From Desulfomarina profundi (GTDB lineage Bacteria; Desulfobacterota; Desulfobulbia; Desulfobulbales; Desulfocapsaceae): a stretch of DNA of 64,000 nt. Under the pieces are notes generated by a model. It was not told where the DNA came from, searched no databases, and was given only the letters and a program-made list of their open reading frames with translations. Below, piece by piece: positions 3,938 through 6,682 of the stretch (position 1 is its first letter; each line of letters begins with the position of its first letter). The DNA lies in assembly GCF_019703855.1 (NCBI RefSeq), contig NZ_AP024086.1:3802501-3866500 (forward strand), read 5' to 3'. The translations under genes and the position numbers were made by a program.

Positions 3938-4539
3938 TGAAGAAAAACAGATGCAGCTGGTGTGGAGATGATCCACTTTACCGGGAATATCACGACAGGG
4001 AATGGGGAGTCCCCCTGCATGATGAAAAGAAGCTGTTTGAGTTTCTCTGTCTTGAGGGTGCCCAGGCAGGTTTGAGTTGGCTGACAATATTGAGGAAAAG
4101 GGCTAATTACCTGGAGGCTTTTGATCATTTTGATGTGGAAAAAATGGCAGGATATGATGAAAATAAAATTAAAAGTCTGTTACAGAACAAGGGGATTGTG
4201 CGTAACAGATTAAAAATAAATGCGTTTATCAACAATGCCCGCTGCTATCTTGACATGGCGGATAAAGGAGAAACTCTCGATTCCTTTTTCTGGAAATTTG
4301 TTGATGGTAAACCGATTCAGAACAGTTGGAAGTCACAGAAGGATGTTCCTGCGACAACTCCTCTTGCCGGAACTATCTGCAGGGAGTTGAAACAACGCGG
4401 GTTTCAGTTCGTCGGTGCTACTATCTGTTACGCACATATGCAGGCAACGGGAATGGTTAATGACCATCAGACAGACTGTTTCAGATATCGGGAAATCGCT
4501 CAACTGGCCCGTCCTTCCCAGCAGTCCAGGTTCATATGA
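3937..4539 (+). CDS. tag: DNA-3-methyladenine glycosylase I
   Basis: A 200-residue Tag-family base-excision enzyme that removes 3-methyladenine from DNA. Visible marks are the zinc-binding N-terminal RCSWCGDDPLYREYHDREWG, the catalytic-region E in LEGAQAGLSWLTIL, and the C-terminal GFQFVGATICYAHMQATGMVNDH with the paired zinc ligands (H and C). The ATG at 3937 overlaps the TetR stop as TGATG, indicating translational coupling. Confidence 0.93.
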   Translation: MKKNRCSWCGDDPLYREYHDREWGVPLHDEKKLFEFLCLEGAQAGLSWLTILRKRANYLEAFDHFDVEKMAGYDENKIKSLLQNKGIVRNRLKINAFINNARCYLDMADKGETLDSFFWKFVDGKPIQNSWKSQKDVPATTPLAGTICRELKQRGFQFVGATICYAHMQATGMVNDHQTDCFRYREIAQLARPSQQSRFI

Positions 4540-4567
4540 AAACAAACCATCATTACGTATAATTCCG

Positions 4568-5125
4568 ATGGACATATTAACCCTTACCGGCATTGCCGCA
4601 GGCCTGGCCATGGATGCTTTTGCCGTGGCCCTGAGTGCCGGAGTAATGCTTAATCCTCTTACCTTCAGGCAGTTGTTTCGGCTTGGATTCCATTTTGGTC
4701 TTTTTCAGGGGCTGATGCCGATTATCGGCTGGCTGGCCGGTATCAGTCTCAGGAAGTTTGTAACCGTTTTTGCCCCATGGATTGCGTTTATCCTGCTCTG
4801 TTTTACAGGAGGAAAAATGATCCATGAGGCGTTAACAGGAAATGATAAGCCGGTAAAACGAACCGATCCCACGCGGGGCATGACCATGGTCATGCTGTCC
4901 GTGGCCACTTCAATTGATGCGCTGGCTGTGGGTTTTTCCCTGTCGCTCCTCGGGGTTTCTATCTGGACACCGGCCATAACCATAGGGATTATAACTGCAG
5001 CACTGACAGTGATCGGTATGCTTCTCGGCAGCAGAATTGGAACTCTGTGGGGAGATCGAATCGAGATCCTCGGTGGGTTTGTGCTGATTGCTATCGGTCT
5101 GAAAATATTACTCGGTAGTGTGTAA
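4568..5125 (+). CDS. mntP: Manganese efflux pump MntP
   Basis: A 185-residue inner-membrane protein with six predicted helices, of the MntP (former DUF204) family that exports Mn(II). The two repeated halves carry the conserved acidic membrane motifs: GLAMDAFAVALSAG near residue 13 and VATSIDALAVGFSLSLL in the second half. The start is the ATG 28 bases after tag. There is no room for a manganese riboswitch, so expression probably comes from the tetR-tag transcript. Its 3' end overlaps the 3' end of the minus-strand thioredoxin-like selenoprotein gene by 18 bases. Confidence 0.92.
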   Translation: MDILTLTGIAAGLAMDAFAVALSAGVMLNPLTFRQLFRLGFHFGLFQGLMPIIGWLAGISLRKFVTVFAPWIAFILLCFTGGKMIHEALTGNDKPVKRTDPTRGMTMVMLSVATSIDALAVGFSLSLLGVSIWTPAITIGIITAALTVIGMLLGSRIGTLWGDRIEILGGFVLIAIGLKILLGSV

Positions 5126-5470
5126 CCTCAATTCTGCAGGCTTCAGGTGCAATCTTTTCAGTTCATTGATAATGAATTCTGCCGGTACTTTTTTTGTGAA
5201 GCCACCTGCTTCTTGACTATAGACCCGTCAGCCCAGGCCGAATTCCCTGCGGTCCCTGGCGGCTACTTCCACATCAATACCGTTTATCCGAACAGATGGA
5301 GAACCGAGAAATCCGGCCTCTTCAGCCTGGTCGGCATTTTCAATGACCATGGTTTCAACCCCAGCTTCAATCTTTGCCCCGGTCAGGAGATCAGCTACCA
5401 GTGTTTCTGTCTGCTGTCTTGATGAACAACCGGGGGCAACGAGGATCTCAATTTTTATTCTGATTGACAT
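5108..5470 (-). CDS. Thioredoxin-like selenoprotein (in-frame UGA = Sec81)
   Basis: A predicted 120-residue thioredoxin-fold protein. The first part reads MSIRIKIEILVAPGCSS with Cys15, followed by GFLGSPSVRINGIDVE, the cis-proline region. The frame then meets TGA at 5230-5228 and stays open for 39 more codons (RVYSQEAGGFTKKVPAEFII) to TAA at 5108. Cysteine relatives end with a GLACR-Y type motif followed by a Gly-rich turn and a last helix, which matches GLG-U-RVYS. The UGA therefore most likely encodes Sec. A hairpin begins 15 nt downstream. I use the ATG at 5470; a GTG at 5482 is an alternative and neither has a strong ribosome site. It is the last gene of the merR operon. Confidence 0.82.
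5198..5212 (-). promoter_or_regulatory. Candidate bacterial SECIS hairpin
   Basis: On the coding strand, a stem GAAGC/GCTTC closes the loop AGGTG, starting exactly 15 bases after the UGA. The GGU in the loop resembles the apical loop needed by SelB in known bacterial SECIS elements. It is the best-looking of the three candidate hairpins. Confidence 0.6.
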
Positions 5471-5474
5471 GTAA

Positions 5475-5518
5475 CTGGTCACATGATTTGTAACTATGTG
5501 TTTTCATTTACCTTGCAG
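5475..5518 (+). repeat. Hairpin repeat, copy 2
   Basis: This is a relative of 341-385 with the same loop ATTTGTAAC and the stem CACATG/TATGTG. It lies at the start of the thioredoxin-like selenoprotein gene and in the 50-base gap after the CPLC thioredoxin gene, so it could affect either transcript. Confidence 0.5.
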
Positions 5519-5533
5519 TACTCTTTTTTCAGT

Positions 5534-5800
5534 TTAACTGAGAGGTTGGCCTATTCCTGCGGCCATCAACCTGGTCTTTTCGGGTCCACGACCGGTGCAG
5601 CAGTCAGCAAGTTTTCCGTCTACGGCGACAGCGGGAACAGAATGAACACCCAGTTCTTTTGCACGGCTGATTCCTGGTGCACCATGCATGTCAACCACAT
5701 TGATATTGCAGGAGGAACAGGCAAGTGCGTTTACCAGTTCTTCTGTTTCTTTGCACAGGGGACATCCCGCACTGAATATTTCGATTTTTCGAGTTGTCAT
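5534..5800 (-). CDS. Thioredoxin-family protein with CPLC motif
   Basis: An 88-residue thioredoxin/glutaredoxin-fold protein. I start it at the ATG ending at 5800 (MTTRKIEIFSAGCPLC), which follows GGAGGAAG and overlaps the preceding stop as ATGA. The active-site pair is Cys13 and Cys16. Further cysteines (ACSSC near residue 30, LADCC near 70) could bind soft metals. The cis-proline region is SVPAVAVDG. Small proteins of this type accompany mer-like operons. It probably reduces or relays metal thiolates or the neighbouring selenoproteins; that role is inferred from context. Confidence 0.78.
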   Translation of the reverse strand: MTTRKIEIFSAGCPLCKETEELVNALACSSCNINVVDMHGAPGISRAKELGVHSVPAVAVDGKLADCCTGRGPEKTRLMAAGIGQPLS

Positions 5801-6207
5801 TTTTCTTCCTCCATCTTTGAGTATGGGGTTGAAACAGTTGTCTTGGAATTCTTCCGCGGCCAACTGTTCCACAATGAGGCTGCTATGAGCAAAGCCAGCC
5901 CGCTGTAAAAAAGGAATGGTATATCGATAATAAATTTTCCTGTTATAATGAGCAGTGATCCTGTAAGTCCTGTCCAGAAAGGTTTATATCCTCTTCGTCG
6001 TTTTGCTCTGAATGCCAGAAATCCGACAGACACAATCAATGCAGCAATGGTTATCCACAGCATGACAGTATCATTAATTAAAAATCCCAATCCGACCGAA
6101 CTGGCAAGGCCGGCATATGCCGGCCAGCAGGATGGTCAGAGCAGCCTTGGTAAAAGCGCTACACCGATTCCGGGAAGCGTCTTGGAAAACTGAATAATTG
6201 TATTCAT
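5797..6207 (-). CDS. MerT/MerC-like membrane selenoprotein (in-frame UGA = Sec24)
   Basis: A 136-residue membrane protein read through a TGA at 6138-6136. Translation gives LLPRLL-U-PSCWPAYAGLASS, a UPSC motif at the mouth of the first membrane helix. MerT/MerC-type transporters carry paired cysteines there. Three further hydrophobic segments follow (about 45-64, 75-92, 95-112), then a charged tail. The ATG at 6207 overlaps the merR stop and follows GGAGAAGATCC. If the UGA were a stop the product would be 23 residues, yet the downstream frame keeps a clear membrane-protein sequence. It probably imports Hg(II) or another thiophilic ion toward the partner redox proteins. The exact subfamily is uncertain. 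Confidence 0.8.
6108..6125 (-). promoter_or_regulatory. Candidate bacterial SECIS hairpin
   Basis: On the coding strand, a perfect 7-bp stem GGCCGGC/GCCGGCC closes the loop ATAT, starting 10 bases after the UGA of the MerT-like gene. It is the strongest stem of the three candidates. The loop lacks an obvious GU, so recognition by SelB is less certain. Confidence 0.5.
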
Positions 6208-6617
6208 GGATCTTCTCCTTCCGGTTCAAGGGCAGCAAGAATAGGGCATTGGTGAATGGGGCCACTGCCGCTGCACTGAAGAGTCAGTTGAGCCAGTGCT
6301 TCTTTCATTCTGTTCAGGTCGTATATTTTTTTTTCAATGTCCCGGATTTTTACCTCTGCTTTTATCTTCACATCGCTGCATGTTGCATCCTGATTCAAAC
6401 GCAGGGAAAAAAGCTCACCCACTTCCTGCAGAGAAAATCCCAGCTGTTTGGCTCTTTTAATAAACCGTAATTTATCTATTGCCTCAGGCGGGTATTGCCT
6501 GTAACCGGAATCAGTGCGTGGCGGTTCTTCCAGCAATCCCACCCGTTCATAGAAACGAATGGTCTCGACCCCAAGTCCAGCCTGTTTAGCAACCTTGCCA
6601 ATGGTAAGTGCTTTCAT
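6204..6617 (-). CDS. merR: MerR-type metal-responsive activator
   Basis: A 137-residue MerR with an N-terminal winged HTH (LTIGKVAKQAGLGVETIRFYERVGLL), the RQYP wing and a dimerisation helix. Cys80, Cys115 and Cys124 have spacings of 35 and 9, the same as the three Hg(II)-binding cysteines of the Tn501-type MerR. That makes Hg(II) the likely inducer. It is the first gene of its own operon, as in Gram-positive mer operons, rather than divergent. The matching promoter with a 19-bp spacer is 35 bases upstream of the start codon. Confidence 0.9.
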   Translation of the reverse strand: MKALTIGKVAKQAGLGVETIRFYERVGLLEEPPRTDSGYRQYPPEAIDKLRFIKRAKQLGFSLQEVGELFSLRLNQDATCSDVKIKAEVKIRDIEKKIYDLNRMKEALAQLTLQCSGSGPIHQCPILAALEPEGEDP

Positions 6618-6651
6618 TTATGACCTCACGTTGTTGTTTTCCTCATCTTTA

Positions 6652-6682
6652 CTATAATCTCTGTAGTATACTACGGAGTCAA
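6652..6682 (-). promoter_or_regulatory. MerR-type promoter and operator
   Basis: On the minus strand the -35 TTGACT (6682-6677) and the -10 TTATAG (6657-6652) are separated by 19 bases, the over-long spacing typical of MerR-activated promoters. The spacer holds the near-perfect dyad CTCTGTAGTATACTACGGAG (6659-6678, plus strand), where MerR would bind and untwist the DNA. It drives merR and the three genes after it. Confidence 0.88.

Follow-up and report, generated by a model that had tools for sequence, protein, structure and literature searches.

A predicted selenoprotein variant of the mer operon in Desulfomarina profundi and its probable role in mercury uptake

A stretch of 64,000 nucleotides from Desulfomarina profundi (Desulfobacterota; Desulfocapsaceae; RefSeq assembly GCF_019703855.1, contig NZ_AP024086.1, positions 3,802,501 to 3,866,500 of the forward strand) was analysed and is called the window below. 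On its minus strand it carries a cassette of four genes for a MerR regulator (merR), a MerC-like membrane transporter (merC), a thioredoxin-like carrier (trx) and a small protein of the DF family. On balance, this cassette probably serves the uptake and hand-over of Hg(II), with selenocysteine (Sec) replacing cysteine at two points of the path. The preliminary description of this DNA had reported four tightly arrayed genes behind one MerR-type promoter, and all four genes and the promoter were recovered. The features are as follows (positions of the window).

6682-5108, minus: merR-merC-trx-DF cassette, promoter and four genes in a single transcription direction
6651..6682, minus: MerR-type promoter/operator; TTGACT, 20-base spacer with the dyad CTCCGTAGTA/TACTACAGAG, TATAGT
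6204..6617, minus: merR regulator gene, 137 amino acids; Cys80, Cys115 and Cys124; TIGR02051, 136.4 bits
5797..6207, minus: merC-like transporter gene, 136 amino acids; Sec24 (UPSC); TGA stop; PF03203, 36.1 bits
6136..6138, minus: UGA codon 24 of merC, predicted to be read as Sec; TGA at 13 distinct loci, Cys at 15
6093..6138, minus: SECIS-like hairpin (selenocysteine insertion sequence) starting from the merC UGA; closing stem UGACC...GGUCG
5534..5800, minus: trx gene (thioredoxin-like carrier), 88 amino acids; CPLC, CSSC and CC; PF13192, 38.4 bits
5108..5470, minus: DF family selenoprotein gene, 120 amino acids; thioredoxin fold; Cys15 and Sec81; NF049942, 90.5 bits
5482, minus: in-frame GTG, alternative start of the DF gene
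5228..5230, minus: UGA codon 81 of DF, predicted to be read as Sec; TGA at 28 distinct loci, Cys at 16 with a readable site
5198..5212, minus: SECIS-like hairpin GAAGC-AGGTG-GCTTC past the DF UGA

By sequence inspection, the -35 box TTGACT was placed at 6682-6677 and the -10 box TATAGT at 6656-6651. The merR/merC and merC/trx pairs overlap by ATGA, and the DF gene starts 63 nt past the end of trx. On the plus strand, an open reading frame (ORF) for a membrane protein, MntP-like by eye, lies at 4415-5125; it is convergent with the DF gene and overlaps its end by 18 bases.

The cassette was compared with loci pooled from a thioredoxin scan, from relatives and from searches of the phylum. For the scan, the Sec-free thioredoxin-like protein was used as query against named genomes, which resulted in 39 loci. 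L-numbers denote loci and G-numbers genomes of this comparison. L002, L004, L063, L103 and L107 were dropped as duplicate places, near copies (L067, L076, L071) were left out of most counts, and L075, L078 and L100 are weak or cut. The family identities, the conserved operon, the Sec sites and the regulator cysteines emerged from comparison of the predicted sequences.

The complete order merR-merC-trx-DF with TGA at both codons was found in the window and in five other genomes (L024, L025, L026, L027, L030), and relatives carry Cys at both Sec columns; the expectation that the gene order recurs elsewhere with exchange of Sec and Cys was thus borne out, and the redox residues were found to be conserved. 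The Sec-type order merR-merC-trx occurs without DF in L033, L034, L035, L039 and L042. L061 has merR and Sec-type merC before its contig ends inside trx, and L052 has Sec-type merC and a cut trx, with no match for merR. Among the Cys-type loci, DF-merC-trx stands behind merR in L037, L040, L051, L064 and L065 and more loosely in L073, while merR follows trx in L044 and is missing from the short L074; merR-merC-trx is found in L066, L068, L069, L070 and L072. The genes after merR in L128 encode a MerT-HMA protein, DF and Trx, and in L120 MerT is placed after trx. The ORF beside DF in L128 had been guessed to be linked to MerB, but Pfam assigned MerT and HMA to it. A TTGACY element with a 20-base dyad spacer and a -10 box precedes merR in most loci scored and was clear in seven of the 11 distinct Sec-MerC loci scored (both without shuffled control; the promoter region of L025 is interrupted by a contig end). 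The cassette is rare, as the MerC profile matched in 16 of 395 phylum genomes, ten of them strongly (expect value E below 1e-20), and the window's own is the only one of the 16 with TGA.

The reading of both UGAs as Sec, by means of local hairpins, SelB and tRNA-Sec, is well supported by these comparisons. The case for the SECIS-like hairpins was built on comparison with Cys homologues, because a search of the window with Rfam at gathering threshold resulted in no match. The closing stem UGACC/GGUCG was present in 13/13 Sec MerC loci; in 13 Cys loci, the outermost pair was formed in 13 and the four inner pairs in 4, 0, 1 and 2; no Cys codon has the third letter of TGA. The codons for Ser-Val-Gly in this stem read TCG-GTC-GG in 13/13 Sec loci and varied in the Cys loci. 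The mean folding z score of merC was -2.3 in the 13 Sec loci versus -0.2 in 17 Cys rows; for the folding sets only L063, L002 and L004 were dropped, so that near copies are among the 17 MerC and 16 DF Cys rows. For DF, the loop of the best hairpin contained GG in 25/28 Sec versus 3/14 Cys loci, and the Sec hairpins were stronger. The genome of D. profundi encodes SelB (364.5 bits, cut-off 242.25) and tRNA-Sec (74.9 bits, gathering threshold 47). SelB was above cut-off in 12 of the 13 Sec-MerC genomes (not in G447); for Cys genomes the figures were 11/11 within the phylum and 0/4 from the named-genome scan. Because merR and merC themselves end in ordinary TGA stops, decoding of the two UGAs must depend on context.

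The regulator gave its top score among the MerR-family models listed with the mercury model TIGR02051; it scored 128 bits with CueR, 124 with a ZntR model and 103.0 with CadR-PbrR. Its two nearest solved structures are 4ua1, which we take to be mercury-bound MerR, and 5crl, annotated in the structure match list as mercuric resistance regulator; CueR and CadR rank after them. Cys80, Cys115 and Cys124 align with three cysteines of 4ua1 and 5crl that are presumably the Hg ligands. The preliminary description proposed import of a thiophilic ion. A thiophilic ion is still the most likely cargo, and the proposal can be narrowed: Hg(II) is the likely ion, because of the three MerR cysteines and because merT, merTP and merA adjoin relatives of the cassette.

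Service to another soft metal (Cd, Pb, Zn, Ag, Au, Cu), or to several, under a MerR-family sensor of other specificity would agree with the CueR and ZntR scores, with a mercury score below its own cut-off and with the cation-efflux family gene that follows the Cys-type operon of L037; sensors of Cd and Pb have a similar layout of three cysteines. Since the mercury model scored best (136.4 bits versus 103.0 for CadR-PbrR), since 4ua1 and 5crl are closer than CueR and CadR, and since merT, merTP and merA stand beside relatives, this alternative is nevertheless considered unlikely.

When Sec was replaced by Cys in its sequence, the transporter exceeded the gathering score of PF03203 (MerC, 27.6). 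It had been described as MerT-like with Sec: the Sec part was retained, given the conserved TGA, and the MerT part was replaced by MerC, as the MerT model PF02411 gave no match at E up to 0.1. On these scores the protein is best described as a MerC relative rather than a MerC equivalog. The predicted metal-binding pair of its first helix is UPSC, and UPxC or CPxC in relatives (13 distinct loci with UPxC encoded by TGA versus 15 with Cys at the same column). MerC of Tn21 has four cysteines, including a cytoplasmic C-terminal pair. A C-terminal tail with two or more cysteines was present in 14/15 Cys forms versus 0/13 Sec forms; L071 is the Cys form without a tail, and in L054 the reading frame continues into a Cys-rich stretch. 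Both were included in this count and in the MerC tree, and L054 lies outside the 13 Cys rows used for the stem and codon counts. L071 and L072 belong to the same genus: L072 has a CPAC tail, and L071 ends early and tail-less at a contig start. The 13 Sec forms make up one side of a branch of the MerC tree (support 92/89), and a single change of the Sec/Cys character sufficed in 94% of 200 bootstrap trees. Because the Sec forms are one clade, the Sec/Cys change and the absence of the tail are one coupled event.

Lys and Arg were counted over an alignment of 23 MerC sequences. The loop that joins helices 2 and 3 (mean 3.6) and the C-terminal flank (1.8) are positive, and the other two loops have means of 0.3 and 1.0; both ends of MerC, and hence a fused DF domain, would therefore be cytoplasmic, and we infer a four-helix protein with cytoplasmic N and C ends. 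DF and MerC are fused into a single protein in five genomes (L037, L040, L044, L051, L064). The model of the L040 fusion shows a confident DF domain and a MerC part of four helices of 16-23 residues; its predicted template modelling score (pTM) is 0.48, and the block means of the predicted local distance difference test (pLDDT) lie at 45-66 in the linker and near where the first helix begins, so that it gives no reliable docking of DF. MerT and MerE need a Cys pair in their first membrane helix to transport Hg(II) (PMC5715351; all statements cited by PMC number refer to excerpts of these publications). For this reason Sec24/Cys27 was placed as the predicted gate.

In place of uptake, the cassette might protect thiols and selenols or drive efflux, with MerC working outward or as a membrane trap while DF and the thioredoxin-like protein take Hg(II) or organomercury off the thiols of the cell and deliver it back to the membrane or to sulfide. 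The thioredoxin fold of the carriers, the lack of a cytoplasmic two-Cys tail in Sec-type MerC and a genome without recognised MerA would suit such a role, which is nonetheless doubtful, as MerC and MerT are known importers (PMC5715351) and Cys-type relatives adjoin MerA, an enzyme that needs Hg(II) inside.

The thioredoxin-like protein belongs to Thioredoxin_3 (PF13192, cut-off 24.8), and its CPLC, CSSC and CC pairs are kept in most relatives listed. Seven stretches matched a pattern for its viral relatives, none of which was confirmed. The last protein lies above the curated cut-off of 70 of the DF family (seleno)protein model NF049942. Its structure model has a thioredoxin fold (pLDDT 86.0, pTM 0.78), and the top Foldseek matches were thioredoxins (best E 0.0011, probability 1.00, TM-score, i.e. 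template modelling score, 0.44), with no match at E <=0.001. All 26 DF sequences of the alignment have Cys15, Cys/Sec81 and Arg82. For the two thioredoxin carriers named in the preliminary description, a thioredoxin fold is thus predicted; they are not ordinary thioredoxins, one having three Cys pairs and the other an invariant Cys with a distant Sec. The DF gene of L095 and L097 (1498-1773) has two in-frame TGAs. Because the Cys15 place is also TGA there, it looks as if both members of the DF pair can be Sec. In L006, the DF gene (1501-1770) has an extra in-frame TGA at a Phe position of its relatives, four codons ahead of the Sec site; it is a sequencing error or real.

The DF gene is not confined to the cassette. 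A merR, merC or trx gene was found within 1.5 kb of 7/28 Sec and 15/17 Cys DF genes, numbers that are biased since some loci came via the thioredoxin scan or the MerC search. Among places found by DF search alone (the best 30 loci of one of two DF searches), linkage was 4/25 for Sec DF and 8/10 for Cys DF. The four linked Sec places are L005, L098 and those of L027 and L030; linkage is lacking in the Cys rows L081 and L100, of which L100 is cut ahead of the Cys/Sec site. A quick DF tree places the 28 Sec forms on one side of a branch with a value of 84 in the Shimodaira-Hasegawa approximate likelihood ratio test (SH-aLRT). Linkage to merR, merC or trx requires at least five changes in this tree, three of them forced by well-supported branches. 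Apparently, DF thus entered or left mer operons repeatedly, and this recurrence speaks for a shared function. The neighbours of a lone Sec DF are a gene for 2-oxoglutarate dehydrogenase E1 and a chemotaxis receptor in L129 (similar ORFs in L130), and a weakly pterin-binding-like protein, a Usp protein and a DUF202 protein in L131 (similar ORFs in L132).

The genome of D. profundi was available as one contig (4.3 Mb, 95.6% complete). That merA and merP are absent, as the preliminary description stated, holds within the window; genome-wide no MerA match reached the cut-off, and MerP was not searched genome-wide. MerT and MerB gave no match in this genome, and as the same searches matched no control genome either, this is weak evidence of absence. 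HgcA was found with 414.4 bits (cut-off 275) and the motif INVWCAAGK, and the ORF downstream of hgcA is HgcB-like, with two CxxCxxCxxxCP clusters and a CC end; we take this motif, the clusters and the CC end to mark HgcAB. At this locus (L135, G000:C1:2310500-2315000), hgcA and the hgcB-like ORF stand behind an ArsR-like regulator ORF and a Cys-rich permease-like ORF, the latter two named by eye, and a second metal-controlled unit beside the methylation genes is possible. In the 28 compared genomes, MerA was above cut-off in five and HgcA in ten. MerA above cut-off lies beside Cys-type operons in G077 (1.5 kb from merC) and G275 (2.0 kb); two Sec-MerC genomes (those of L034 and L035) carry it on other contigs.

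A supply line for methylation, in which the cassette imports Hg(II) and hands it to HgcA, could be considered for a genome with HgcA, an HgcB-like ORF and no recognised MerA. HgcA above cut-off was found in 7/10 phylum genomes with a strong MerC match versus 107/385 others (Fisher p 0.008), but these ten genomes are related (three of one family, two of one genus; 4/7 when counted by families), and because they are not independent no enrichment of hgcA is claimed. Moreover, hgcAB lies 1.5 Mb from the cassette, HgcA is above cut-off in just four of the 13 Sec-MerC genomes, and 107 of the 114 hgcA genomes of the sample have no strong MerC match. The supply line is therefore regarded as improbable. 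Equally little weight is given to its extension, that in MerA-less bacteria with hgcAB an Hg-inducible, dedicated supply of HgcA by Sec-gated MerC and the Sec/Cys carriers would be an inner-membrane mercury uptake route of at least some methylators.

Weakest of all, the idea that both UGAs are real stops and the genes broken or truncated can draw on TGA being the genuine stop codon of merR and merC as well, and is scarcely credible in view of the same-codon TGA at 13 MerC and 28 DF loci whose proteins are otherwise conserved, the TCG-GTC-GG codons of all 13 Sec MerC loci, and SelB and tRNA-Sec in the genome.

For the preferred reading, uptake and hand-over of Hg(II), the following path is proposed, in which Hg(II) as inducer and cargo, the inward direction and the order of hand-over are deduced from the components. 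To judge from its residues and the operator, MerR would bind Hg(II) via its three cysteines and open the single promoter. One UGA each in merC and DF would be decoded as Sec by the hairpins, SelB and tRNA-Sec. MerC would take Hg(II) on the Sec24/Cys27 pair of its first helix and move it inward, where it would be passed to the cytoplasmic carriers, DF with Cys15/Sec81 and the thioredoxin-like protein with its three Cys pairs. In Cys-type relatives, the CPxC tail of MerC or a fused DF domain would fill the place of the carrier, with MerA beside two of them. Candidate end points are precipitation as sulfide or selenide, a plain option, redox release, and methylation by HgcAB, a bold one; detoxification, sensing and supply to methylation are all candidate purposes of the cassette. 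As a guess at why Sec is used, holding and exchanging Hg(II) in sulfide-rich cells might work better with a selenol than with a thiol.

Several results weigh against this proposal. MerR stays under the TIGR02051 cut-off of 150.85, and the transporter, with 35.3 bits, falls far short of the cut-off of 140 of the NCBI MerC equivalog NF033784. The operator was not clear in the Sec-MerC loci L034, L039 and L042. The best merC hairpin has a loop without G in 10/13 Sec loci, and the folding z scores of DF are nearly equal (-0.6 for Sec and -0.2 for Cys), which speaks against a textbook SECIS. No merR, merC or trx lies within 1.5 kb of 21/28 Sec DF genes, so that the role of DF may be wider than mercury. 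None of the 15 MerA matches in the genome of D. profundi is above the cut-off of 454.45 (best 347.6 bits); of the six best, five have complete ends, none with a CC end, and L137 stops early. MerA above cut-off was present in two of the 13 Sec-MerC genomes and absent in the other 11, many of them partial metagenome-assembled genomes, and the HgcA count of four in these 13 is a further point.

The membrane passage of Hg(II) in methylating anaerobes is poorly understood, and mer-resistant bacteria are mostly aerobic and unable to methylate (PMC12915048). A merR/merC cassette in a genome with hgcAB and without recognised MerA is a concrete candidate for uptake. In addition, the orphan selenoprotein family DF gains a mercury-operon context, a MerC-type protein is added to the known Sec proteins, and in a metal transporter one Cys/Sec exchange is seen to accompany the absence of a cytoplasmic cysteine tail.

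The components were compared with known systems. With MerC of Tn21 (PF03203), the transporter shares the family match, a CxxC/UxxC pair in the first helix, a short hydrophobic sequence and an operon with merR; it differs in having Sec for the first Cys, no two-Cys tail and no merA, merP or merT in the operon. The MerT-like protein ABB16073.1 is likewise a predicted mercuric transporter with Sec (PMC13188914, PMC9312934). It belongs to PF02411 and has Sec in second place (C/SxxU), whereas the transporter of the window belongs to PF03203 and has Sec first (UxxC). A MerC selenoprotein was not found in the literature searched, which took in few subscription papers; the excerpted text of PMC13188914 contains neither PF03203 nor a MerC-type selenoprotein, and NCBIfam and Pfam scans of the transporter gave no selenoprotein-type MerC model. 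The published hypothetical protein DF (NF049942) agrees with the DF protein of the window in an above-cut-off family match and in Sec. When predicted, DF was known from one genome, with no conserved domain and no TGA-containing homologue according to the excerpts of PMC12013277, and it is listed in a selenoprotein review of 2026 (PMC13188914); the present comparison extends the former account by a predicted thioredoxin fold, 28 Sec loci and, for some of these, a mercury-operon context. TIGR00412 (MTH895/ArsE thioredoxins) is the nearest NCBI model of the CPLC protein, which stays below its cut-off of 62 with 32.6 bits and has additional CxxC and CC pairs. The SAO (Sec-assisted organometallic) operon resembles the cassette in having several selenoproteins per operon and a metal or organometal chemistry (PMC13188914); no Sao model was matched by any of the four cassette proteins. 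With the canonical merR-T-P-A operon, the cassette has in common an Hg-type MerR, a MerR-type operator and a membrane transporter; it differs in having two selenoproteins and a thioredoxin-like protein with three Cys pairs, and no MerA, MerP or MerT in the operon. The cassette is thus a variant of the mer operon, whose function we infer, rather than a new kind of system.

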